This document shows, piece by piece, positions 29,874 to 45,241 of a stretch of DNA of 64,000 bases. This stretch comes from Halosolutus gelatinilyticus (lineage in GTDB: Archaea; Halobacteriota; Halobacteria; Halobacteriales; Natrialbaceae): NCBI RefSeq assembly GCF_023028105.1, contig NZ_CP095491.1:310001-374000 (forward strand). The letters are read 5' to 3'. The position numbers and the translations under genes are program-made. Every line of letters begins with the position of its first letter. The first letter of the stretch is position 1. The notes under the pieces are model-generated. The model did not search any database. It had not been told where the DNA came from and worked only from the letters and a program-made list of their open reading frames with translations.

Positions 29874-30650
29874 TTAGAATCCGTTTCGGATCCGCGCTTC
29901 AGATTCCTCGAGCGCAGCCTCCGGATCGAACGCCTCGATAATTTCCCTGAGTTCCGCCTCGTCCGCGTCGGCCAACTCACGCGCGTGGTCGGTCATGTTC
30001 GGCACCGCGCGGATGATATTGTCGACGATCGGCACGTCGGCGACCCGCGGCGATCGCGACAGCGGGTTGAGGTCGATCACGATCTCCGTCTTGTCCATCG
30101 CGTCCAACGCTTCGGCCCGATCGCCATCCTCGAGCGGGACGAGCACCACGTCGGCGGCGTAGATCCCGTCGGCGTCGACCTTCGCCCGCTGGTGGTCGAG
30201 GTTCGGAATCTGAGCGTCGGCCTCGATCCCTTTCACGTCCTCGGCGCCGTGCTCGCGGAGGTGGTCGGCGATCGCCGCGATCCGTTCCGGCGTTCGATTG
30301 AAGAGGTTGACCTCGAGGTCGGCACCCGTCGCCTCGGCGAGGGCGACCATCTCGCCGGGGACGAGCGCCGCCACGTTACCGTTGATCGAGAGCACCGGCC
30401 GATCGGCGAGCAGCAGGTGGGCCGCGGCCGCCCGCTCGGCCTCGTCCGCGCTGGGGATCGTCTCCTCGCCGAGCAGGTAGTCGAAGGCGCTGGCGCGCCC
30501 CTCCGCGTGCATCCCCTGCAGGTGCGTGATGCCCTTCTCGACGCCCTTCTCGATTCGGTGGCGGGTGAGCAGGTCCTGGTATCTCGGGTGGTCCTCAGGG
30601 ATCTCTTCCTCGTCCTCGACCTCCGCCGAGACGGTCTCGTAGTCGGTCAC
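29874..30650 (-). CDS. 4-phosphopantoate--beta-alanine ligase (archaeal phosphopantothenate synthetase)
   Basis: This 258-residue protein matches archaeal phosphopantothenate synthetase: IPEDHPRYQDLLTRHRI at the start, then GMHAEGRASAFDYLLGEET and the nucleotide-binding region NLFNRTPERIAAIADHLREHG and IDLNPLSRSPR. It joins 4-phosphopantoate and beta-alanine with ATP, replacing bacterial pantothenate synthetase plus kinase in archaeal CoA synthesis. The partner pantoate kinase is at 37908-38741 in the same window. Stand-alone on the minus strand, converging with the DUF4870 gene. Confidence 0.92.
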   Translation of the reverse strand: MTDYETVSAEVEDEEEIPEDHPRYQDLLTRHRIEKGVEKGITHLQGMHAEGRASAFDYLLGEETIPSADEAERAAAAHLLLADRPVLSINGNVAALVPGEMVALAEATGADLEVNLFNRTPERIAAIADHLREHGAEDVKGIEADAQIPNLDHQRAKVDADGIYAADVVLVPLEDGDRAEALDAMDKTEIVIDLNPLSRSPRVADVPIVDNIIRAVPNMTDHARELADADEAELREIIEAFDPEAALEESEARIRNGF

Positions 30651-30913
30651 GGTCGATCACTGGTGGTAGTCGATAAAAAACGACCCGATCGATCGCTCCG
30701 GTTAGCGGTCTCGAGCGAAGCGGTTCCGACGTCTCCGCGACGCGGAAAGTCCCGCCGATCGGCCGTCCGCGCCTCGCTGCGCGCCCTCGCGGTACTCGGC
30801 GGCGGCCGCGGTGCGACGCGGCCGTGAGCGTGGCCGAGTGATCGGAGTCACGTTCCGCGACGAAACCGGTTAGGTCCGTAACACTATTGCCGGCTCCGAG
30901 ACGATACCACGGC

Positions 30914-32098
30914 GTGACACTGACACCGGACCGACGACTTCAGGTCCGAATCGCCGGCGCGCTCGCGTTGGTCGTGGTCGTCAACGCGCTCCTGCTCTCG
31001 GTGCTGGCCTGGAGCGTACACCACGTCCTGTCCGCGAGCGACCGAGCGGTGTCGCTTGAGTCCGGTCTCTCGATACCCCGTCTGCCGCTCGTCGTCGGAG
31101 CGATCCTCCTCGGTGCGATCGGTCTCGTCGCTGTGCAAGCGCGCTACGGCACCCGGACGGTCGCCGCCGGCCTCGAACTCGAGGAAGTCGACGGGACGGC
31201 CGACGGGCCGCGAAACGTCGTCGGGCGAGTGCGACGGCTGGCGGCGCAGGCGGACGTTCCCCACCCCACCGTTGCCGTCGCCGACCGAGACGAACCGGGC
31301 TGTCTGACCGTCGGGACGCAGCGGTCGCCGACGATCGTGATCACCGCGGGGTTGCTCGACTCCCTCGACGACCGCGAACTCGACGCGGCGCTCGCCCACG
31401 AGGTCGCTCACGTCGCGAACCGCGACCTCCCGGTCGTCACCGCCGTCGCCGCGACGGTCGCGATCGGCGATCGGTTGCTCGAGCGCGAACGGAAGCTTCG
31501 AAGCGTTCTCTGGGGGTTGGCGCTGGTTGCTTTCTTCACCGGCGTCGGTCTCCTCGTTCTCGCAATACCGATCCTGCTGCTCGTGATCCTCTACATCATC
31601 CTGAGCGCCGTCGCGCGGGGACTGCTCGGTGTGAACGCGATCGCCCTCGGGCTATTCTCGAAAACCCGCGAGTACGCCGCCGATCGCGGTGCGAGTCGGC
31701 TCACCGGCGATCCGGCCGCGCTGGCCAGTGCCCTTGAGACGCTCGAGGGCGACGGCCGCCCGACGCGGGACGCGCGGCTGCACGCGACGGCGACCCTCGG
31801 GATCGTCCCTCGGCCGCTGTCGTTCGATCGCTCGGCCGAAGACGGCGAGCGAACCTGGTTCGACCGGTGGTTCGTCGACCAGTTCACCGTGGAGACCGTC
31901 GAGGACGAGCGGTCAGACGACTCGAGTCCGTCGGGATACGTAGACCGGGCAGTAGAGCGCGTCAAAGCGCGGCTCCGGACGCGACTCGTCGGCCCGGCGA
32001 AGGCGGGCGTCCGGCGGTTCCTCGGCTGGCGACCGGTGACGCATCCGACGACCGAATCGCGAGTCGAGCGCCTGCGGAGCCTCGAGCGGCGTCGATAG
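30914..32098 (+). CDS. M48-family membrane metalloprotease (HtpX-like)
   Basis: This 394-residue protein has two N-terminal hydrophobic segments, the zinc motif HEVAH at residues 162-166, two further hydrophobic segments (VLWGLALVAFFTGVGLLVLAIPILLLV) and the third zinc ligand in EYAADRGA. This is the HtpX/Ste24-like M48 layout, with the active site facing the cytoplasm; it degrades misfolded membrane proteins. The GTG at 30914 was chosen because an upstream TTG would add 9 residues without membrane or family character. The C-terminal region is long and arginine-rich. Confidence 0.87.
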   Translation: MTLTPDRRLQVRIAGALALVVVVNALLLSVLAWSVHHVLSASDRAVSLESGLSIPRLPLVVGAILLGAIGLVAVQARYGTRTVAAGLELEEVDGTADGPRNVVGRVRRLAAQADVPHPTVAVADRDEPGCLTVGTQRSPTIVITAGLLDSLDDRELDAALAHEVAHVANRDLPVVTAVAATVAIGDRLLERERKLRSVLWGLALVAFFTGVGLLVLAIPILLLVILYIILSAVARGLLGVNAIALGLFSKTREYAADRGASRLTGDPAALASALETLEGDGRPTRDARLHATATLGIVPRPLSFDRSAEDGERTWFDRWFVDQFTVETVEDERSDDSSPSGYVDRAVERVKARLRTRLVGPAKAGVRRFLGWRPVTHPTTESRVERLRSLERRR

Positions 32099-32210
32099 GG
32101 ATGAAGCGAGTCGACGCCGAACGCCGGCTGACGGACGGGGCCTCGAAATCTTATAAAGACACGATAGGCTTCGCGTAAAGCCACTCCGGTGTCGCGCCGA
32201 AACGTCGAGT

Positions 32211-32975
32211 ATGGCGACCGAACGACGAGACCGCGATCCGGACGGCCGGTCGAACGAAGTCCGGTCGGACGGCGACCGGTACGAAGCCCACCTCGAGCGC
32301 AGTCGGAGGGTCTGGGACCGCTGGAGCGATCGGTACAAGATGAGTGAGCGGGACTTCGAACCGATCCGCATGGCCGCGATCGATCGACTGGCTCTCGAGC
32401 CGGGCGATCGCGTTCTGGAGATCGGTTGCGGACCCGGCGTGAACTTCGAACGGGTCCGAAGCGAGGTCGGCGACGAGGGAGAAGTGATCGCCGTCGACTA
32501 CAGCCCCGAGATGGTCGAGAAGGCGCGCGAGCGGATCGGGCACTACGACTGGGAGAACGTCGAGGTCCGGTGCGCCGACGCGGCGACGGTCGCGTTCGAC
32601 GAGCCGTTCGACGCGGCGCTGGCGACGCTCTCGATGAGCGTCATGCCCGACGCGGAGCGGACGGCGGCGAACGTCTACCGATCGCTGGCTCCCGGAAGTC
32701 GGTTCCTCGCCTTCGATATCGGGCCGTTTCAGACCGGTCCCGCTCGGCTCGCGAATCCGCTCGTCCGACGGTTCCTGCGGTGGTACGCGAACTGGAATCC
32801 CGACGACGACGTCGTCGACTCGCTCTCGACCGTGTTCGACGACTGTGCGGTCGTCGAGCGGTACGCCGCCGGCGCGGGCTACACCGTGCTGTGCGAAAAG
32901 GAGCCGCTTTCGACGACCGCGTCTCGGAGGCGCGATCGGACGAGTAACACCTCCGAGAGCCGATCGGACGAGTAG
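32211..32975 (+). CDS. Class I SAM-dependent methyltransferase
   Basis: This 254-residue protein has the SAM-binding motif LEIGCGPGVNFERV, the acidic motif II end VIAVDYSPEMVEKA and the later DAALATLSMSVMPDA segment. It resembles UbiE/phosphatidylethanolamine-type methyltransferases, and the active site lies between. The target (a lipid, quinone or small molecule) cannot be told. The N-terminus (MATERRDRDPDG) is charged and probably disordered. It is flanked by the M48 protease and a Bat-type regulator. Confidence 0.85.
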   Translation: MATERRDRDPDGRSNEVRSDGDRYEAHLERSRRVWDRWSDRYKMSERDFEPIRMAAIDRLALEPGDRVLEIGCGPGVNFERVRSEVGDEGEVIAVDYSPEMVEKARERIGHYDWENVEVRCADAATVAFDEPFDAALATLSMSVMPDAERTAANVYRSLAPGSRFLAFDIGPFQTGPARLANPLVRRFLRWYANWNPDDDVVDSLSTVFDDCAVVERYAAGAGYTVLCEKEPLSTTASRRRDRTSNTSESRSDE

Positions 32976-32987
32976 CGTCCCCTATCC

Positions 32988-33632
32988 TTACCGTTCGTCG
33001 AGCACTCGTTCCACGGCGTTCGCCTCGGCGCGGCGAAGCAGCTCCGACGCCGTCGAAACTGCACAGCCCAGTTCGTCCGCAACGGCTTCGATTCCGGCTT
33101 CGCGCGGAACCTCGTAGAAGCCGAGCTCCCACGCAGCTCGGAGCGCCGTCAGTTGTCGATCGGAGACGGCCGGCTCCCGGACCGTCACCTCGTCGCTCAC
33201 CCAGCGCACGTCGAACCGGATCCCATCGGCGACCGCGTCCATCACCGCCGCGAGATCTTCGGGATGGCCGACGAGCGTCAGCCGGATCGTCCGATCGGAT
33301 CGAACCTCGATCGGCGGCACGACCACGACGGTCTTCTGCGCCAGCGCGTCCAGCAACGACAGGCCCTCAGGGCCGAGTTTCCGTCGAAGGTAGCAGAAGA
33401 AGCCGTCGTCGGAGGGCGCGATGTCGTACTCGAGTACCCCGTCCCGATCGTACAATAACGACTCGTACGCTTCGGGTTCTCCGTAGACGAACGACGTGAT
33501 CGTCTCGACGCCGTCGACCGACTGCCCGCCGACGATGAGTTCCCGATCGAGCGCCGGCGACTCGCACAGCCCCGCGTGGAGCGGCGGAATCGTCTCGCTC
33601 GTGTACCCGATTTCGATTCCCATCGACTTCAT
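32988..33632 (-). CDS. Bat-type helix-turn-helix transcriptional regulator (HTH-10 family)
   Basis: This 214-residue protein ends with the HTH-10 domain: LTALRAAWELGFYEVPREAG, then VADELGCAVSTASELLRRAEANAV, typical of haloarchaeal Bat-like regulators. The N-terminal 140 residues form a separate sensory domain of unknown ligand (LVGHPEDLAAVMDAVADGI). Such proteins regulate many haloarchaeal genes. The start MKSMGIEIGY was chosen because an upstream extension is basic and unlike the family. It converges with the methyltransferase gene, only 12 bases away. Confidence 0.87.
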   Translation of the reverse strand: MKSMGIEIGYTSETIPPLHAGLCESPALDRELIVGGQSVDGVETITSFVYGEPEAYESLLYDRDGVLEYDIAPSDDGFFCYLRRKLGPEGLSLLDALAQKTVVVVPPIEVRSDRTIRLTLVGHPEDLAAVMDAVADGIRFDVRWVSDEVTVREPAVSDRQLTALRAAWELGFYEVPREAGIEAVADELGCAVSTASELLRRAEANAVERVLDER

Positions 33633-33715
33633 GGCTCGGCGTTCCCGCCGCGAGCACTTAAATTCGCGATAGGTTTCGCGACTGCTCCGTTCGTCCCGTC
33701 CCCCGTAGGTATCGT

Positions 33716-34717
33716 ATGGCACGAACACGCGGCCGACGACGGCTTCGATACGGACTCCTCGTCGGTACCCTCGGCGCCCTCGCCGGCGCCGCGTACCGCC
33801 GACGCCGCTCGCGAATCGATCGGACGCCGACGTCCGAGGCGGTCATCACGGAACGCCACGCGACGGCGTTTCTCGCGGATCGAGCCGTCGATCCGACTCG
33901 CGTTGACGAACTCGGAACCCGCGTTTCGCAGACCCTCGCCGAAGCCGATCCGAGCGAGTTGCTGGGCGTCGACGGCGCGAGTACGGCGACGCTGTTTCTC
34001 GATCGGGGCGGCGCCGAACCGATTCTCCGCTGGTACGTCGAGCTCCCGCGGTCCGTCGTCGACGCGTGGAACGATCCCGATGCGACGATCGACGAGGCGT
34101 TCCCGATCGCCCACGACGCCCTCGAACCGATGGACGAACCGATCGATCGGGAACTCGTCGTCCACGCGGTGAACCCGTCCCGACCGCGGTCGATCGCGGC
34201 CGACGATTCGGACGCCGACCCGAATCCGGACGCGGACCGGGAGTCGGGATCGCTGCTGGTTGCCGCCGATCGCGACGAGTCGGGCGTCGATGTCGAACTG
34301 GTCCGAACGCGACTCGAATCCGGCTTCCCGGAGCGGTTCGCCGACTGGTTCGCCGAGCTGTCCCGGCGCGTCGTCGCTGGCGACCTCGACCTCGATCGCG
34401 TCCAGTCCTGGAGCGCCGAGATGCTCGACGCGGAGGAGATGTACACGGAATCGATCTTCCTCGAACGCGGGGCCGACGGCTACGCGGCGCTCCAGTACAT
34501 GGAAGCGCGCGACATGCGGCAAGTGTACGACGCCTACTACGCTACCTGGAATCCGGTCGCGCGACTCTCGGAACTCCTGCTCGGACGGCTCCTCGAGGAG
34601 CCGAGTCGCATCCTCCAGTATCCGTTCGGTTCCGATATCGAACCCCTCGCGCACGCGATCGCACCGGATCGGCCCCGTCGAGTCGCCGACTGCCGGGCGG
34701 CGGGCGTCGACGACTGA
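33716..34717 (+). CDS. Hypothetical protein with possible DUF6176-like region
   Basis: This 333-residue protein has an N-terminal basic/hydrophobic segment (RYGLLVGTLGALAGAAYRR) that may be a membrane anchor. The middle is acidic and contains a low-complexity Asp-rich linker (DDSDADPNPDADRES). The C-terminal third (EEMYTESIFLERGADGYAALQYMEA) resembles DUF6176-type domains, which are ferredoxin-like and seen in small haloarchaeal proteins; this assignment is from memory and uncertain. A second related copy appears in the first half (STATLFLDRGGAEPILRWYVEL), suggesting duplication. Function unknown. Confidence 0.65.
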   Translation: MARTRGRRRLRYGLLVGTLGALAGAAYRRRRSRIDRTPTSEAVITERHATAFLADRAVDPTRVDELGTRVSQTLAEADPSELLGVDGASTATLFLDRGGAEPILRWYVELPRSVVDAWNDPDATIDEAFPIAHDALEPMDEPIDRELVVHAVNPSRPRSIAADDSDADPNPDADRESGSLLVAADRDESGVDVELVRTRLESGFPERFADWFAELSRRVVAGDLDLDRVQSWSAEMLDAEEMYTESIFLERGADGYAALQYMEARDMRQVYDAYYATWNPVARLSELLLGRLLEEPSRILQYPFGSDIEPLAHAIAPDRPRRVADCRAAGVDD

Positions 34718-34774: not shown

Positions 34775-37672
34775 TCAGTCCGTGAAGGTGATCCAGCCCT
34801 CGGGGGCGTGGGCTTTCACGTCGTTCATCGCCTCGCGGGCGTCCGTCCGGCTCTCGTAGGTCTGGGTGCTCTCGGCCATCGTCGAGCCGTACTTATCGAC
34901 CAGCTGCCACACCCAGCCGTCCTCGTCCTCGGCGCTGTGGAGCTCGAAGGAGACGCTGTCGATCTCGAGGATGCTCGCCGCTTCGATCAGCGACCGGACG
35001 CTCTCGATCGCATCGCGGGCGGCCGCGTTCGAGTCGTGGACTTCGGTGCCGGTCGCGACGGTCCGGCCGTCCTTGTCGAGCAACCGCCACTGCCAGTGGT
35101 CGTCCTGGTCGGCGACCAGTTCGAACGAGGCGACGTCGAAGTCGACGCGGCCGGCGATCGAGGCGAGCTGTTTGATGGTCTCGATCTCCGAGACGGCGTC
35201 GTCCTTCGTCGGCGCGGAGCTGACCCCGCTCGCGATGACCTCGCGGTCGCGGTCGATCAGGTCCCAGCTCCAGCCGCCCTCGTCGCCGAGGCGAATCACG
35301 GCGTCTTCGATCGCGAAGATCGGCGCCTCGTCGGCGTGCGTCGTGAGCGTGTTGACGGTCGCCGACGCGGTCGCGCGGTCGGCGTAGGAATCGGTCGAGT
35401 CGGCGATCTCCTCGCGGTCGCGATCAAGGAGTCGGAAGCGCCACTCGCTGCTGCCGTAGAGTTGCACGGCGACGTCGCCGATCGTGTAGTCGTTCGCGGT
35501 CGCCGCGGCGTTCCGAACCGAATCGAGACTGTCGACCAGTTCGTCCCGCGTCGGATGGGACTCGCCCTCGACGGCGACGGTCTCGCCCGTCGGCAGGACG
35601 AACCGCCAGTGCCACTCCTCGGCCGGGTAGGTCTGGAAGATGGCCCGGTCCATCGTGCGAATGTTCGAGTCGAGGTGCTCGAGCAACCGGTTCATCGCCT
35701 TGCGCGCGGCGCCGCGGGTCGGGTGGGTTGCTGGGTCCTCGGCGACGAGTTTTCCGGCTTCGTCGATCAGTCGCCAGCCCCACTCGTTGTCCTCGTTGAC
35801 GAACAGTTCGAACGCCGCCGTCTCGATCTCGAGCAGTTCGGCGTCGGGCGCCTCCTCCTTCAGCGTCATCATCGCCTGGGCGGCCTCGCTGCGGGAGGTG
35901 TGTTCCTGACCGCTGTCGGCGAGCACATTCCCGTCCTCGTCGATCAGCCGCCAACGCCACTCGCCGTCGTCGGCCTCGTAGACCTGGAACGCGGCGTTCT
36001 CGAACTCGATCAGGTCGGCCTCGGCCGCCTGTTCGCGAACCCGTTCGATCGCCGCCGACGCCGACTCGGGGCTCTCGTGGGGTTCGTTGCTCGCAGCGAC
36101 GATCTCGCGATCGTCGGTGACGAGTCGCCACTGCCACTCGGGCGGCGCGTCACCGTCGCCGGCTTCGGCGACCGTTCCGCCGTCGGTCGAGACCGCCTGT
36201 TCGCCCGCCTTCGCCGGCAGGTCGTCGGTCTCGTCGTACGTGAGCTCCCACCCCGAGGGGAAGACCTCGTACTCCGCGTCCTCGATTTCGACGACGTCCG
36301 CGTCGCGCGCGTTCGCCTGGAAGGCCTCGGTACTCCGCTCCGAGTCGGCGTGATCGGTCACGCCGTCGAGGCTCCGGGCGATGACGTGCTCGGCCTCGTC
36401 GACGAGTCGCCACCGCCACTCCTCGCCGGACTGGTAGTGTTCGTAGGTCGGTTCGCCGGCGACGGTGACCGCGGCCGATTCGAGTTCCGGCAGTAACGCT
36501 TCGGCGGCTTCCTCTGCGTCCCGACGCGATCCGTACGTGTCCTCGGCAGTCGCGACGACCGCGTCCGCATCGTCGACGAATCGCCACGTCCAGCCGCCAT
36601 CGCGCTCGTAGAGTTCGACCCCGACGTGTTCGATATCGAGCAGTCGAGCCCGATCGAACCGTTCGGCGAACGTCCGGGCGGCCTCCTCGGCGCGCTCCTG
36701 GGTTTGGTGGCCGTCCTCGCCGGCCGCGAGGGGCGTCCGCTCGTCGTCGATCAGCTTCCAGTACCACCGATCGCGCTCCTCGGTGTAGGTGAACGCCGCA
36801 TCCTCGATCTCGATCACGTCGGCCTTGGGACCGCGGTCTTTCAGGAAACTCACCGAGTTCTCGGCCTCGTCGCGCTCGTCGAACTGGCCGGCGCAGGTAC
36901 CGACGATGCTGCCGTCGTCCCGGGCGAGCGCCCACTGCCAGGTTCCGTCGCGGTCCTCGTAGAGGCGAAACGCCGACGTCGTGAGTTCCATCAGCCCGGC
37001 GGAGCTAATCTGGGACTTGACGCGCTCGATCCCCTCTTTGGCTTCGGGGCGCGTGACGGCGCTGTCGTCGCTTCCCGCGAGTGCTTCGAGGTGGAGGACG
37101 TTCCACGTCCAGTCGCCGTGCTCGTCGCGGAAGACCGCGAACTGCGCCCCTTCGGTCGCATCGCCAGTGAGAATCGGCGGATCCTCGGTCGCTCCCTCCT
37201 CCTCGACGAACATCCCTTTCTGCCCCGTGAGGATGGGCACGAGCGCGGTCACGCCCGCGATGATTCCGATCCCGGCCGTGTACGTCACGATCACCTCGAC
37301 GCTGTAGTCGACCCCGAAGCCGCGCCAGTTGTTCGGATAGGCGTAGCCGAAGAAGACGACGCCGGCGAGCGAGATCGCTAGGCCGACGACGCTCGCCTGT
37401 ATCCCCCGTTTGCGAACCGGCAGCATCAGGACGATGCCGAACAGGCAGAGCGTAAGGCCCGTCGCGGCGACGACCCCGGAGATCCTGATTAACGTATAGG
37501 ACCCGGTGTCACCCGCGTAGCCGACCACGAATGTGAACACGCCCGCGGCACCGACGACGTAGCCGAGGATAAACACCCAGTAGCCGTAGACGTCCTTTCT
37601 CGAGTTCGGTTCGCCGACGTAGCGTTCGTACAGCTGAAACAGGTTTTGGTGAAGGTCGCTGCTGAAAGACAT
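34775..37672 (-). CDS. Large membrane protein with 13 DUF1508-type repeats
   Basis: This 965-residue protein has four membrane spans in the first 150 residues (YWVFILGYVVGAAGVFTFVV and others), then a long soluble part with 13 repeats of about 55-60 residues. Each has the core W-x-W-x-hydrophobic (WTWNV, WQWAL, WYWKL, WRWRL, WGWRL, WHWRF and so on), followed by a polar loop and a helix with regularly spaced alanines. This is the DUF1508/YegP fold, normally found as one or two copies in small proteins such as the haloarchaeal HVO_2922. The sixth repeat is interrupted by an acidic insert of about 35 residues. Soluble repeats probably face one side of the membrane as a long rod or array. The function is unknown. 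Confidence 0.85.
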   Translation of the reverse strand: MSFSSDLHQNLFQLYERYVGEPNSRKDVYGYWVFILGYVVGAAGVFTFVVGYAGDTGSYTLIRISGVVAATGLTLCLFGIVLMLPVRKRGIQASVVGLAISLAGVVFFGYAYPNNWRGFGVDYSVEVIVTYTAGIGIIAGVTALVPILTGQKGMFVEEEGATEDPPILTGDATEGAQFAVFRDEHGDWTWNVLHLEALAGSDDSAVTRPEAKEGIERVKSQISSAGLMELTTSAFRLYEDRDGTWQWALARDDGSIVGTCAGQFDERDEAENSVSFLKDRGPKADVIEIEDAAFTYTEERDRWYWKLIDDERTPLAAGEDGHQTQERAEEAARTFAERFDRARLLDIEHVGVELYERDGGWTWRFVDDADAVVATAEDTYGSRRDAEEAAEALLPELESAAVTVAGEPTYEHYQSGEEWRWRLVDEAEHVIARSLDGVTDHADSERSTEAFQANARDADVVEIEDAEYEVFPSGWELTYDETDDLPAKAGEQAVSTDGGTVAEAGDGDAPPEWQWRLVTDDREIVAASNEPHESPESASAAIERVREQAAEADLIEFENAAFQVYEADDGEWRWRLIDEDGNVLADSGQEHTSRSEAAQAMMTLKEEAPDAELLEIETAAFELFVNEDNEWGWRLIDEAGKLVAEDPATHPTRGAARKAMNRLLEHLDSNIRTMDRAIFQTYPAEEWHWRFVLPTGETVAVEGESHPTRDELVDSLDSVRNAAATANDYTIGDVAVQLYGSSEWRFRLLDRDREEIADSTDSYADRATASATVNTLTTHADEAPIFAIEDAVIRLGDEGGWSWDLIDRDREVIASGVSSAPTKDDAVSEIETIKQLASIAGRVDFDVASFELVADQDDHWQWRLLDKDGRTVATGTEVHDSNAAARDAIESVRSLIEAASILEIDSVSFELHSAEDEDGWVWQLVDKYGSTMAESTQTYESRTDAREAMNDVKAHAPEGWITFTD

Positions 37673-37907
37673 TTTTCAAACTTGACCGGATAACTAGATC
37701 GAACTATAATAAATTTACGGCTATTATACGCATTTTTGTCACATCCCGTGAAAGTTAGAAGAAACCGCGTCTTCGGGCCCATGTCCACCATTTTCGATCG
37801 AATCGCGGGACGATCGAGCGAGTTGGTTTCAGTCCGTCTGCACATCGATCGCTCGAGAAGTAGATTCGGGAACGCGAGATCGGTGTCGCGGTCCCCGATC
37901 GATCGCC

Positions 37908-38741
37908 TCACCTGAGAAGCGCGCCGGCCGGGTGGGTCGCACAGACGCACGGGTCGTAGCCGGCGTCCGAGAGTCCCGTCCCGAGCGCGAACACCGTCTC
38001 GCCGAGCATCGCCATCGACGCCTGCCCGTCAACCGCGATCACGTCCTCGATCGTTCCCTTGACGTCCTCGGTCAGCAGTCCGGTCTCGCGCGCGAACCGC
38101 CGGGAGGCGTACATGAACGAGCGGAGCGTGGGTTCCTCGACGATCCGCGAGAGTGCCTCCGTTCCGGCGGCCGACAACCGATCCGTCTCGCCGGAGAGCA
38201 CCTCGGCCGTCGAGAGCTGGCCGAACGTGACGTACTCGACTCGGGCGCGCGCGGGAATCGCGTCGAGCGTGTTGGTCTGCGGTCCGCCCGGCTCGAGGCG
38301 AATCGGGATGCCGCCGTGAGCCTGTGCGACCACGTCTCCCAGCCCGGTCCCCGCCTGGACTTCCGCCCCGTGGGCGATCGTCACGAGTTCGTTTTCCGAG
38401 AGCTTTCGCTCGAAAACGTGATTGGCCGCGAGCGCCGTCCCCAGCGCCATCGCCCCCGAGACGCCGAATCCGGCGCCGATCGGCAGATCAGACTCGGCCT
38501 CGACGCGAGCGGGCGCGTCGAGCGTCTCGAGTACGGTCGTCACCGGATCGATCTCGATCTCCTCGCCGTCGAGGACGATCGTCGACTCCGCCCTGACCGC
38601 CGGTTCGACGGTGACCTCGACGCCGTCGGTGAGCGTCAGTCCTGCACCTCGGGACCCCGCCTTCGTCGGATCGTCGTCCGGGTGGGCGCTGAAGAAGCCG
38701 GTGATGTGCCCCGGGACGAACGCCGTCGCCTCCTCGCGCAT
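37908..38741 (-). CDS. Pantoate kinase (GHMP family, archaeal CoA pathway)
   Basis: This 277-residue GHMP kinase has the ATP-binding PIGAGFGVSGAMALGTALA motif near residue 88, and the start TAFVPGHITGFFSAHPDDDP, which marks archaeal pantoate kinases. It phosphorylates pantoate to 4-phosphopantoate, the step before the ligase at 29874-30650. The start MREEATAFV, 25-30 bases after a TATA-like box, was chosen over a longer frame that extends 43 residues upstream. Its stop is 235 bases from the AT-rich promoter of the DUF1508 repeat protein. Confidence 0.9.
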   Translation of the reverse strand: MREEATAFVPGHITGFFSAHPDDDPTKAGSRGAGLTLTDGVEVTVEPAVRAESTIVLDGEEIEIDPVTTVLETLDAPARVEAESDLPIGAGFGVSGAMALGTALAANHVFERKLSENELVTIAHGAEVQAGTGLGDVVAQAHGGIPIRLEPGGPQTNTLDAIPARARVEYVTFGQLSTAEVLSGETDRLSAAGTEALSRIVEEPTLRSFMYASRRFARETGLLTEDVKGTIEDVIAVDGQASMAMLGETVFALGTGLSDAGYDPCVCATHPAGALLR

Positions 38742-38863: not shown

Positions 38864-40201
38864 ATGGCAACTCGATCCGATCCGGACGGCTTCGGCGCGT
38901 TCTTCAGGCGGTACACGAAGACGTGGATGCACGCCGTCGCGGCGGCCGGACTTACGGCGTTCGGCGTGCTCGCGACCGTCCACCGGGGCTTCGTCGTGCT
39001 GGCGATCGCCAGTTACGTCGTCCCGCCGATCGTGCTTTATTTCTCGCGTACGCGCGGCCGCGACGACCCGGTACCCACCGGATCCCGCTCACCGACCGAC
39101 GCCGCACTGGCCGAGGCCGATCGGTCCAATTCGAGCGCCGGTTCCGACTCAGGGTCGGGCCGCGACGGCACACGGACGACACCCGATTCGAGCGGAGAAT
39201 CCGCCGAATCCGGGCGCCGATCGGCGTCGGTATCGGTCGCCGGTCGCACGAGCGGCACCGACACCCGGAAGAAACCGGAGTCCGACGCGACAGGCGACGA
39301 CCCGGGATCGGAACCCGAACGGGAACCGCGCTGGCGGTCCGTCGAGTCGCCGACCGACGCGACGCTCTTCGACGCCGCGATCGCGGACGAAACGGTGGTC
39401 GCCGCCGGAACGGGCGGCGTGGTCCTCGCGTCCCGCGGCGACGAGTGGAGCCACGTTCTTATCGACGGACCGAGCGCGCAGGGTCAGGACCTCCGCGCGA
39501 TCGACGCGACCGGCGACGGCGAGATCGTCTGGGTTGCCGGCGACGGCGGCGCCGTCGGACGGATCGAGGTCGAGACGGAACGGCACGCGGACTACTCCGC
39601 GCCGAACGATCGGACCGACAACCTGACCGGTCTGGCCGTCGCGGGCGCGGCCGGCGACGAGACGATCCTCCTGACGAACGGGTCGGGCGAGGTGATCCGC
39701 GGCCGGTATCGCGACGGCGATCTCGCGTGGGAGGGCCCCGCCACGCCGGGCGGCGGTTCCAGCGTGAGCGGCGTCGCGCTATTCGACGCCGAGATCGGCT
39801 ACTGCTGCGACACGAACGCCGGCGTCTTCCGGACCGACGACGGCGGTCGAACGTTCGACGCGATCGGTGTCGACGGCGTCGACGGCACGCTCACCGACGT
39901 CACGGGTGATGAGCGGGGCTGCTACGTGAGTACAGATGCGGGCGTCGTCCACCGATTCGACGGCGAGACGTGGACGCCCGAGCGCGTCACCGACGGGTCC
40001 CTCTCGGCCCTCGCCCGGTACGACGACCGACTCGCCACGATCGGCGACGCGGGTGCCGTCTACGATCGTTCTGGTCCGACGGCCGACTGGGAGCGAACGC
40101 TCACGGGCGCGAACGGGCCCCTGCACGGCGTCGCGATCGGCGCCGACCGATCGGTCGCCGTGGGCGCGGACGGAACTGTTGTCGAACGCGAACGGCTGTG
40201 A
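38864..40201 (+). CDS. Membrane-anchored beta-propeller-like protein
   Basis: This 445-residue protein has two hydrophobic segments near the start (WMHAVAAAGLTAFGVLATVH and VVLAIASYVVPPIVLYFS), then a serine-, threonine- and aspartate-rich linker of about 90 residues and a C-terminal half of short repeated units (DGEIVWVAGDGGAVGRI, DAEIGYCCDTNAGVFRTDDGG, ALARYDDRLATIGDAG) of BNR/Ycf48-like type, which build a beta-propeller. It may sit in the membrane and interact with partners through the propeller. No catalytic residues are seen. It is divergent from pantoate kinase. Confidence 0.65.
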   Translation: MATRSDPDGFGAFFRRYTKTWMHAVAAAGLTAFGVLATVHRGFVVLAIASYVVPPIVLYFSRTRGRDDPVPTGSRSPTDAALAEADRSNSSAGSDSGSGRDGTRTTPDSSGESAESGRRSASVSVAGRTSGTDTRKKPESDATGDDPGSEPEREPRWRSVESPTDATLFDAAIADETVVAAGTGGVVLASRGDEWSHVLIDGPSAQGQDLRAIDATGDGEIVWVAGDGGAVGRIEVETERHADYSAPNDRTDNLTGLAVAGAAGDETILLTNGSGEVIRGRYRDGDLAWEGPATPGGGSSVSGVALFDAEIGYCCDTNAGVFRTDDGGRTFDAIGVDGVDGTLTDVTGDERGCYVSTDAGVVHRFDGETWTPERVTDGSLSALARYDDRLATIGDAGAVYDRSGPTADWERTLTGANGPLHGVAIGADRSVAVGADGTVVERERL

Positions 40202-41873: not shown

Positions 41874-44800
41874 TCATCGATCGCGATTTCGCGCTGCTGG
41901 AAGCGTAACCGAGACCGTCGTTCCCTCGCCGGGCTCGGAGTCGATCCAGATCTCCCCGTTGTGACGCTCGATGATCCGCTCGCACAACGAGAGCCCGATG
42001 CCGGTCCCGGCGTACTCGTCGCGGCTGTGAAGTCGTTGGAACACGTCGAAGATTCGATCCTGGTCGTCGGGATCGATACCGATCCCCTCGTCGCGGACCG
42101 ACACGACCCACTCGGACCCGTCTCTGGCCGCTGAGACGTGGATCCGCGGCGGCTCGTCCCCGCTGTACGTGATCGCGTTCTCGAGCAAGTTCTGGAACAC
42201 TTGACGGAGCTGGCTCGGATCTCCCTCGACGCGGGGGAGGTCGTCGCCGGAAATCTCGGCGTCGCTCTCCGCGATCTGGACCTGGAGGTCCGTCAGCACG
42301 TCGTCGAAGACGGTATCGAGGCCCACGGGTTCGAGCGGATCGCCCTGCGTTTCGACGCGCGAGTAGGCGAGTAGCCCCTTGATCATCTCGCGCATCCGAT
42401 CAGCACCGTCCACGGCAAACTCGAGGAATTCCTCGCCCTCCTCGTCGAGGACGTCCTCGTACCGGCATTCGAGGAGCTGGAGGTAGCTCGAGACCATCCG
42501 CAACGGCTCCTGTAAGTCGTGGGATGCGGCGTACGCGAATTGTTCGAGCCGTTCGTTCGACGCCTCGAGTCTGTCGATCACCGTTTCGAGTCGCTGCTCG
42601 CGCCGTTTGCGCTCGGTGATATCTTGGGCCGCCCCGCGGAGCGATACGGCGTCGCCGTCGACGGTCTCCGGGACGCCCTGCACCCGAAGCCAGCGCACCT
42701 CGTCACCGATCGCCGTACGGAGGCGCACCTCGACGTCGAAGGGGTCGCCGGAGTCGAGCGCGTTCTCGATCGCCGCTTCGACGATCGGCTTGTCCTCCTC
42801 GTGGTACATCTCGAGCGCCTCGGAAAGCGGCGGTTCCTCGTCGGAATCCGCCTCGAGGAGTTCGAAGATGTGGTCGGACCAGAACACCTCCGTCGTCTCC
42901 GTGTCGATCTCCCAGCCGCCGACGTCCGCGATCCGTTCGGTCTTCTCGAGCAGGTCGAGCACCCGTTCGAGTTCCCGCTCGCGTTCGACCTGTTCGGTGA
43001 TGTCGCGCGTCAGCGCCACGTGGGCGATCGTCCCGTCGGGACGGCGGAGCGGCGCCGCGTGCGTTTCCATGTGTCGGCGAGTGCCCTCCAACCCGACGAC
43101 GTCGAACTCCAGCGTCCCGCGTTCACCGCGACAGATCCGCTCGTTGAACTCGCGGAACCGCTCGCGGTGCTTGGGGGCGATCAGATCGTAGACGCATTCG
43201 CCGGTTACGTCCGATTCCGCGTCGGCTTCCACCATGTCCAGCCCGGCGGCGTTCATCTGGAGTAAGGTACCGTCCGGGGCGACGGTTTTGATGCATTCGG
43301 GCGCCGTCTCGACGAGCGCGCTCAGATGTTCCGTCTGCTCGCGCAGTTCTCGCTCGCGCTGGCGGCGCTCGAGTTCGTACTTCACCCACTGGCCCATCAG
43401 GTGCTGGAACGTCCGTTCGACCCCCGAGAACCCGTCCGCTCTCGGTTCGGTCGACACGAACCAGAACGTCCGGTTGGCGTCGTCCTCGAACTCGAGGTGC
43501 GTTCCGAGGTACGTTCGGACGCCGAACTGGTCGTAGCACAGTTTGCCCTCGAACCTGTCGCCTGCGGGATCGGTGATCGCACACGTTCCCCCCTCGCTCG
43601 CGGGCACGCTGCAGTACGTTTCGGAAAGCGGATACGATTCGCCCGGAACGAGGTAGTCGTGCTCACCGTTCATCGTCTCTACCTCGAATCGGTCGGTCGA
43701 CGGCTCGGCAACGGCGATACCGGCGAGTTCCATATCGAACCGTTCACAGCCGAGATCGAACAACGCCTGGAGCTTCTCCTCGAACGTGCGGTCGGGGTCG
43801 GACGTGATCTCGTACAATCTCCGCTGTGCGTGTTCCCATTTCTTGCGCTCGCTCGTATCGCGGACCACCGCGAGCATGACTGAACGGCCGTTGTGAACCA
43901 TATGCGACGCGGAGATCTCCGTCGGAATCTCGCCGCGATCGTTCGTGCGACACGTGAGTTCATCGATCCACCCGGTACCGTTCTCGAACACCGCTTCAAC
44001 GAACTCTCGGAACCTGTCGAGTTCGTCGGGGTGGATATCGGAGGGAGCGAGGGCCAGCAATTCCTCGCGCGCGTAACCGAGCATCTCGGTCGCGGCCGGG
44101 TTCGCGTCGACGATCTCGTCCGCCTCGGGATCGACGACCAGGATGGCGTCGTGACTGCTCTCGAATATGCGCTCGAGGTACGTTTGCCGTTCCTTCAGTT
44201 CCGTCTTCACCTCGGTCCGCTCCCGTAGCGTCTGCACCATGCGATCGACCTTCGTCTCGGGCTCCTCGGGGTCGAAGAACTTCTCGGGCGGCGTGTAGTA
44301 GAAGTTCTGGGAGACGGTCCTGTCGGAGATAATATACGGGTGAGTCTTGATGACGTCGTGGATGACCCCTGCCGGGAACCGCTCCCGGTTGTACTGACAC
44401 ATGACGACGTAGTCTTCGTCCTCGTAGAGCGGATTCAACACAGCCTCGTATTCGACTAGTTCGTCGGTACCGGCGTCCCCGTCCAGCGCCCACGTCATCT
44501 CGGCGGCCGCCCTGAGCCCCGTGTGATCGCCCTCGTCCGTCGCCTGTTCGAGCGACTCCTCCCAGAACTCCAGCATCTCGGCCCGATCGAACTTGCCGTT
44601 CCGGCGGTACGTGTCCGCTGGCGTGAGGACGGAGAGTGCGCCCGATTCGAGGGCGGCGTCCACGTCGATGCCGTAGTCCCGCATCGCCCGTAGCACGTCC
44701 TCTCGAGAGTTGTCGTCGGCGACGTACACACAGCGCTCGCCGCGCTCCAGCCCCTGACGGATGAACGGAATCGCGGACGCAAGCTGGTCCTCGCGGTTCT

Positions 44801-44951
44801 CGTAGATGAGTGCGAAATGGTCGTTCGAATGGGCGTGGCCGTCGTGTGATTCGACCGGCCCACGAAACTCCGAGCCCTGACGCAACGACTCCTGCTCCCG
44901 ATCGTGGCACAGTTGGTTCCGTTGGGTGCTGCGCTCGGTTTCGTTACTCAC
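41874..44951 (-). CDS. Multi-sensor histidine kinase (MEDS, PAS, GAF, HisKA, HATPase)
   Basis: This 1025-residue kinase has an N-terminal MEDS domain (about 40-215; DHFALIYENREDQLASAI), PAS (265-385), GAF (390-535), two further PAS domains (545-670 and 680-795), then HisKA with the phosphorylated histidine in YAASHDLQEPL near 813 and HATPase with DEGIGIDPDD and GTGIGLSLC. No membrane span is seen, so it is a soluble sensor of an unknown signal. The GTG start at 44951 is about 28 bases after a TATA-like ggttaagaa (44975-44983 on the other strand), so the mRNA is leaderless. An earlier in-frame start would add 24 residues. Confidence 0.88.
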   Translation of the reverse strand: MSNETERSTQRNQLCHDREQESLRQGSEFRGPVESHDGHAHSNDHFALIYENREDQLASAIPFIRQGLERGERCVYVADDNSREDVLRAMRDYGIDVDAALESGALSVLTPADTYRRNGKFDRAEMLEFWEESLEQATDEGDHTGLRAAAEMTWALDGDAGTDELVEYEAVLNPLYEDEDYVVMCQYNRERFPAGVIHDVIKTHPYIISDRTVSQNFYYTPPEKFFDPEEPETKVDRMVQTLRERTEVKTELKERQTYLERIFESSHDAILVVDPEADEIVDANPAATEMLGYAREELLALAPSDIHPDELDRFREFVEAVFENGTGWIDELTCRTNDRGEIPTEISASHMVHNGRSVMLAVVRDTSERKKWEHAQRRLYEITSDPDRTFEEKLQALFDLGCERFDMELAGIAVAEPSTDRFEVETMNGEHDYLVPGESYPLSETYCSVPASEGGTCAITDPAGDRFEGKLCYDQFGVRTYLGTHLEFEDDANRTFWFVSTEPRADGFSGVERTFQHLMGQWVKYELERRQRERELREQTEHLSALVETAPECIKTVAPDGTLLQMNAAGLDMVEADAESDVTGECVYDLIAPKHRERFREFNERICRGERGTLEFDVVGLEGTRRHMETHAAPLRRPDGTIAHVALTRDITEQVERERELERVLDLLEKTERIADVGGWEIDTETTEVFWSDHIFELLEADSDEEPPLSEALEMYHEEDKPIVEAAIENALDSGDPFDVEVRLRTAIGDEVRWLRVQGVPETVDGDAVSLRGAAQDITERKRREQRLETVIDRLEASNERLEQFAYAASHDLQEPLRMVSSYLQLLECRYEDVLDEEGEEFLEFAVDGADRMREMIKGLLAYSRVETQGDPLEPVGLDTVFDDVLTDLQVQIAESDAEISGDDLPRVEGDPSQLRQVFQNLLENAITYSGDEPPRIHVSAARDGSEWVVSVRDEGIGIDPDDQDRIFDVFQRLHSRDEYAGTGIGLSLCERIIERHNGEIWIDSEPGEGTTVSVTLPAARNRDR

Positions 44952-45241
44952 TCTACCAGGATAATCGCCGAGGATTCTTAACCTTGGCCATTGTTGAACC
45001 GGGGAATACCATCCCGTGATCACCGTCCACCGCGAGAACTACCGTCGCCATCCGCGCTGAACTCGGCATCCGCATTCAGCGTGCCGATTTTGACGAGCGT
45101 CGAACAGCTGTCCGATCCAACCGTTACACAGGTGCCTGTCCACCGTGTCGCTACCGAGAACGTGTCGAAGGAACCGGATTTCGGCAGCATCGGCGTTCGT
45201 GATACGCGAGGAATTAGTGTACTGGCGTCCGATCGTCCACT

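Follow-up and report, generated by a model that had tools for sequence, protein, structure and literature searches.

The minus strand of the analysed window (64,000 nucleotides of a Halosolutus gelatinilyticus contig) carries a gene whose 965-residue product joins a DUF7139 membrane anchor to 13 head-to-tail DUF1508 repeats, a count kept in almost all of its full-length relatives. The 13-repeat array probably works inside the cell, as a structural or docking device of fixed length, and not as a surface fibre. The DUF1508 domain and its fold are already known, with solved structures of single- and two-copy forms, and databases label genes of this type "DUF1508 domain-containing protein"; nothing on membrane-anchored arrays was found in the literature on DUF1508, DUF7139 and HVO_2922. 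What is new is the fixed count, the existence of a five-repeat class, an exchange of the membrane anchor, the predicted cytoplasmic side of the repeats, the genomic context between the genes for pantoate kinase (PoK) and phosphopantothenate/pantothenate synthetase (PPS), and the match of the modelled repeats to YegP and Cis12. The features of the locus, in window coordinates, are the following:

37908-38741, minus: pantoate kinase (PoK, GHMP family), conserved upstream neighbour (NCBIfam, Pfam)
37705-37713, minus: TATA-like element TTTATTATA of the gene's own promoter, conserved in eight related species
34775-37672, minus: the gene, DUF7139 plus 13 DUF1508 repeats (Pfam, NCBIfam, own-repeat profile)
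37214-37645, minus: DUF7139 (PF23600), residues 10-153, four-span membrane anchor (Pfam; topology predicted by the positive-inside rule)
36983-37153, minus: R1, residues 174-230, degenerate (leave-one-out E 4.5e-6)
36806-36982, minus: R2, residues 231-289, well conserved (own-repeat profile, leave-one-out)
36632-36805, minus: R3, residues 290-347 (own-repeat profile, leave-one-out)
36461-36631, minus: R4, residues 348-404 (own-repeat profile, leave-one-out)
36284-36460, minus: R5, residues 405-463 (own-repeat profile, leave-one-out)
36002-36283, minus: R6, residues 464-557, carries a loop insert (own-repeat profile, leave-one-out)
36140-36250, minus: acidic variable insert in R6, residues ~475-511
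35825-36001, minus: R7, residues 558-616, most conserved, nearest to single-domain HVO_2922
35651-35824, minus: R8, residues 617-674, well conserved (own-repeat profile, leave-one-out)
35480-35650, minus: R9, residues 675-731 (own-repeat profile, leave-one-out)
35309-35479, minus: R10, residues 732-788 (own-repeat profile, leave-one-out, four-repeat model)
35138-35308, minus: R11, residues 789-845, modelled with R12 as a YegP-like pair (structure model)
34961-35137, minus: R12, residues 846-904 (structure model)
34778-34960, minus: R13, residues 905-965 (own-repeat profile, leave-one-out, structure model)
29874-30650, minus: phosphopantothenate/pantothenate synthetase (PPS), downstream, with ~4 kb of other genes between

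The open reading frame, whose previously assigned limits were recovered, starts with ATG. Its product matched DUF7139 in Pfam with an E-value of 2.8e-41 (141 bits against a cut-off of 30) and DUF1508 (PF07411) with 5.5e-78 (257 bits against 22), with 10 stretches passing individually; the NCBIfam model of the HVO_2922 family (NF041908) matched even more strongly (E 2.2e-90, 297 bits against 90, 12 stretches). A profile made from the protein's own repeats resolved 13 units that tile residues 174 to 965 without gaps, each 57-61 residues long except R6, which reaches 94 with its insert. When each repeat was left out in turn, it was found by the remaining ones with E-values from 1.4e-22 to 4.5e-6, placing the 13-repeat assignment far beyond chance. 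The original prediction of four membrane spans followed by about 13 DUF1508 copies, one copy being interrupted by an acidic insert, was borne out. The W-x-W motif is present in nearly all repeats, the median linker between repeats is zero at every junction apart from the R6 insert, and the repeats are strongly acidic (70 K/R versus 185 D/E). The R6 insert lies between strand 1 and the W-x-W strand; it varies in length and is missing in about one third of the homologues and is therefore not essential. Pfam matches to a DDE transposase and to SPOR (repeats), and to FtsQ in one paralogue, were rejected as they were below cut-off or had no individually passing stretch.

Relatives were searched in 292 genomes of the class, and loci were extracted from the carriers and from twelve named species. 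Full-length relatives were present in 75 of these genomes and in 31 of 78 genera, the absence from most sampled haloarchaea indicating that the gene is dispensable. The extraction gave 83 rows, or 71 distinct proteins from five haloarchaeal families once the named-species rows were left out. As had been proposed, the repeats were counted in these orthologues: 13 were found in 70 of the 71 proteins (82 of the 83 rows with duplicates), and the other one has 12 at the threshold used, although very diverged arrays of other sizes could escape a selection made by similarity to the query (P0001). These relatives keep their 13 repeats down to about 35-45% identity. Among 300 distant pairs, repeats at the same position share a mean identity of 43%, compared to 29% between positions, and the positional counterpart was the best mean match for all 13 positions. 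Same-position identity in these pairs is highest for R7 (64%), followed by R6 (52%) and R2, R8 and R13 (48% each), and reaches 35% in R1 and R5. The fixed count and the positional best matches imply that the array is old and has neither been homogenised nor gained or lost units; alternatively, the constant number could stem from a slow turnover of very diverged repeats. One orthologue (G025:C51:27698-30680) is encoded by two overlapping frames covering query residues 3-436 and 406-965, which would be due to a frameshift, to a genuine split of the gene or to faulty assembly.

A looser search (E 1e-20, 116 genomes) revealed no arrays of intermediate size; below the 13-repeat proteins it returned DUF7139 alone or shorter arrays. 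Ten of the shorter arrays were read and have exactly five repeats each; they form a second discrete class of DUF7139-DUF1508 proteins (L117, L118, L120, L121, L123, L124, L125 and L128), two of the ten (L119 and L126) being split 3+2 over adjacent reading frames. This class shares the anchor family, the repeat family and the fixity of the repeat number with the 13-repeat proteins, but its repeats are spaced as a single unit and two pairs separated by long linkers, a coiled coil often follows the anchor, and the repeats are much closer to HVO_2922. The single, pair, pair spacing is in line with a YegP-like pairing of domains; in contrast, the linker lengths of the 13-repeat array gave no clear pairing register. 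An origin of the 13-repeat array by block duplication of a five-repeat one was considered but is not claimed, with a weak excess of similarity at lag 5 as the sole signal (R1 with R6, R2 with R7, R8 with R13), and no clear position-to-position match was seen between the two types of repeats. In five further proteins (L005, L122, L127, L129 and L130), one or two DUF1508 domains follow an amphi-Trp domain, an assignment confirmed by Pfam for L129 and made by eye for the others. In the sampled genomes from the rest of the phylum, among the matches listed, DUF1508 occurs in one or two copies in short frames of 61-162 residues, in agreement with the earlier statement that one or two copies are the usual form.

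The same genome encodes a second 13-repeat protein (L002, G000:C1:499391-501904) of 858 residues that is 56% identical to the first and has a single transmembrane span. In this protein and seven others, the single span is followed by positive residues and then by 13 repeats (12 above threshold in L102). These paralogues form one clade nested within Natrialbaceae sequences (SH-aLRT 100), so a different anchor was acquired without loss of the array or of the predicted location of the C-terminus inside the cell. The L002 gene is convergent with a glucose-1-phosphate-type nucleotidyltransferase gene, and an epimerase gene lies nearby.

Four hydrophobic spans (residues ~33-51, 66-84, 91-109 and 127-145) were found in the 965-residue protein, all within DUF7139 and none after residue 160, in keeping with the membrane spans anticipated ahead of the repeats. 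The loop between spans 2 and 3, LPVRKRG, is positive and conserved across close orthologues. In the few proteins with four resolved spans, the crude span-caller having split or merged spans elsewhere, this loop contains 11 K/R versus 1 D/E, and the reverse is seen in loops 1-2 and 3-4. With positive charge in loop 2-3 but not in the loops that follow spans 1 and 3, both termini are predicted to be cytoplasmic. No N-x-S/T sequon is present across the 792 repeat residues. DUF7139 was found in 280 of the 292 genomes and elsewhere bears other C-terminal partners, such as the Cys-rich, zinc-ribbon-like DUF7140. One such protein of the same genome (L004, G000:C1:288656-288910) combines DUF7139 with this short domain; L004 and L003 together suggest that haloarchaea use DUF7139 generally to anchor cytoplasmic domains to the membrane. 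Judged by the positive-inside charges, the lack of sequons and these other DUF7139 fusions, the DUF1508 repeats are predicted to be cytoplasmic.

A full-length AlphaFold model built from 13 close orthologues was of low quality (pLDDT 50, pTM 0.21) and was not used. We therefore rely on a four-repeat AlphaFold (AF2) model of R10-R13 based on an in-register alignment of non-overlapping four-repeat windows, overlapping windows having been left out because their rows would be shifted in register. This model reached a pLDDT of 72, with junctions below 50. It superposes on the two-domain proteins SO3888 (2k49, Z 12.9) and Escherichia coli YegP (2k8e, Z 12.5) over R11-R12, albeit across these low-confidence junctions, and on HVO_2922 (6q2z, Z 7.6) over R13. 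The YegP-like beta-beta-beta-alpha(-beta) fold is thus present in the model, the fourth strand lacking confident resolution. The profile search and the structure prediction put forward as checks therefore agree: the repeats match PF07411 and adopt the YegP fold rather than a different one. By sequence, the 965-residue query alone retrieved HVO_2922 as the single solved protein, while the four-repeat profile additionally found 3bid, 2k7i and, weakly, chain AD of 7b5h.

HVO_2922 and the other UPF0339 single-domain proteins (6q2z, 3bid, 2k7i) belong to the same family by profile and have the same fold; unlike the 13-repeat protein, they are soluble, ~60 residues long and present one copy with neither anchor nor array. 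They form a homodimer in solution (PMC7217052). YegP and SO3888 correspond to two adjacent repeats of the model but have two copies and no membrane part. The top Foldseek match of the four-repeat model was 7b5h chain AD (E 1.2e-4), which is All3315 of Anabaena, and the weak sequence-profile match to this protein covers several stretches within residues 683-1162. All3315 is also named Cis12; an additional domain of this protein (residues 610-1,100) forms a wide connector from a contractile injection system to the thylakoid membrane (PMC8894136). That 2022 paper mentions neither YegP nor DUF1508 in its text. In Cis12, the extension that makes the membrane connector appears to consist of YegP-like domains in tandem. 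Like the 13-repeat protein, Cis12 is large and carries tandem YegP-like domains, in its case as a cytoplasmic membrane connector; it differs in being a baseplate part of an injection system, in having no transmembrane spans and in its very low sequence identity. No other large array of the YegP-like fold with a resolved structure was found here, and this one acts as a structural connector; by analogy, it may serve as a structurally solved precedent for a YegP-like array with a structural role at a membrane.

The gene lies downstream of PoK, for which the best NCBIfam matches were pantoate kinase models below their cut-offs and the Pfam GHMP match was above cut-off. Between it and PPS, at 30887-34717, are genes for an M48 peptidase, a methyltransferase, an HVO_0513/HTH_10 regulator and a DUF6176 protein, whereas PPS is the next downstream gene in most orthologues. 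Of the 45 orthologous loci with flanks, 32 show the order PoK, 13-repeat gene, PPS on one strand. These 32 come from four families (f1, f3 with its genus g47, f7 and f10), and PPS often lies 18-100 bp downstream in them; among the remaining loci, three have PPS alone and one PoK alone within reach. Family mates that lack the gene mostly have PoK and PPS adjacent, 112-145 bp apart (G004, G005, G034, G057, G087 and G092), implying repeated losses of the gene from the operon or repeated insertions into it. In two genera of family f3 (g31 and g42) the gene lies away from the operon, close to a gene resembling that of haem-copper oxidase subunit III, and the single-span paralogue clade is also outside the PoK/PPS context, often adjoining a nucleotidyltransferase gene. 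The coenzyme A (CoA) operon context is therefore suggestive, neither universal nor decisive. Co-expression with the CoA-biosynthesis genes is possible and is not required, as the gene is freely lost from the operon and located elsewhere in other lineages. Regarding the promoter, two TATA boxes had been suggested: TTTATTATA is kept as GCCGGAGC-TTTATTAT in eight related species, ~35-45 nt before the ATG, while the second AT box, TATAATA (37722-37728), is not conserved among them. The spacing of the GCCGGAGC-TTTATTAT element would be compatible with a short or absent leader. The divergent neighbour (38864-40201, plus) encodes a hydrophobic N-terminus followed by a weak YCF48/BNR-type match below cut-off, and 41874-45023 (minus) encodes a 1049-residue MEDS-PAS histidine kinase.

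What the array does can be approached by weighing these observations against several models. A surface adhesive or sensing rod, as originally envisaged, whose repeats would face outwards and project through the S-layer, would suit a long acidic array behind membrane spans. This is very unlikely, as an adhesin would have exported repeats, usually of varying number, whereas the charges predict a cytoplasmic C-terminus, the array is free of sequons, its repeat number is invariant and the derived paralogues, with a positive cluster right after their single span, are again predicted to be C-inside. Acidic surfaces are also usual among haloarchaeal cytoplasmic proteins, and the DUF1508 relatives of the phylum, among the matches listed, are small and without such anchors. 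Membership of a contractile injection system, as a Cis12-like part, can be given hardly any credence despite the tandem YegP-like domains shared with All3315: the phage-sheath gene PF04984 is absent from this genome (G000) and from many other carriers (G028, G045, G046, G047, G052 and G062), several non-carriers have it, and it does not co-occur with the 13-repeat array in 116 genomes. The likeness to Cis12 is thus an analogy, not membership.

The conserved gene order, together with the direct adjacency of PoK and PPS in gene-free family mates, could instead mean that the protein is made with PoK and PPS and docks them, or senses a pathway compound, at the membrane as a regulator or organiser of CoA biosynthesis. 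We find this unlikely, as the PoK-PPS pair stays intact after gene loss and the pathway is hence independent of the gene, the gene and its paralogues also occur outside this context, the 13-repeat gene has a conserved promoter element of its own, and the synteny may be merely inherited. Improbable too is a role in the multivalent binding or buffering of a peptide or small ligand, in which thirteen similar sites would set capacity or avidity; the W-x-W motif in nearly all repeats and the existence of single-domain relatives on their own would fit, but a buffer would keep its sites equal, whereas the positions are strongly diverged and some are degenerate, and no DUF1508 ligand was found in the literature on the family. 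The fixed number, the zero linkers, the position-specific conservation and the survival of the anchor swap lead us to prefer a fixed-length cytoplasmic scaffold over an adhesin, a buffer or a flexible tether.

In our estimate, the odds are about even that the protein is a fixed-length cytoplasmic scaffold tethered to the membrane, with position-specialised repeats. Its cytoplasmic side, its rigidity and its scaffold role are what we infer, while the domain content, the fixed count, the positional orthology, the zero linkers, the anchor swap of the paralogues and the fold of the repeats were obtained by computation. In such a scaffold, the four-span DUF7139 would anchor the protein with both ends in the cytoplasm, and the 13 linkerless YegP-like (beta-beta-beta-alpha) domains would form one rigid array. 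Divergence would have fitted each position to a contact of its own. Docking would occur mainly at the repeats with the highest conservation (R7, followed by R6, R2, R8 and R13), and the array would keep a partner complex at a defined location or distance relative to the membrane. In a more specific version, offered tentatively, the array would serve at the cytoplasmic face as a molecular ruler or as a docking ladder of fixed size: exactly 13 domains would set the distance or stoichiometry of a membrane complex, and neither gaining nor losing a single repeat would be tolerated, even after the exchange of the anchor.

DUF1508/YegP is a widespread orphan domain. In bacteria, yegP homologues lie behind DNA-damage-controlled capK/capS genes at 57 loci (PMC13373217), and the wider YegP family may therefore have a stress role. 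The anchored array of 13 (or five) units gives a concrete handle on the domain, in the choice of conserved positions, in the membrane side at which these work and in what they hold. Its positions evolve separately and its anchor is exchangeable, and the match to the Cis12 connector ties the orphan DUF1508 domain to a structural membrane-connector role in an unrelated system.
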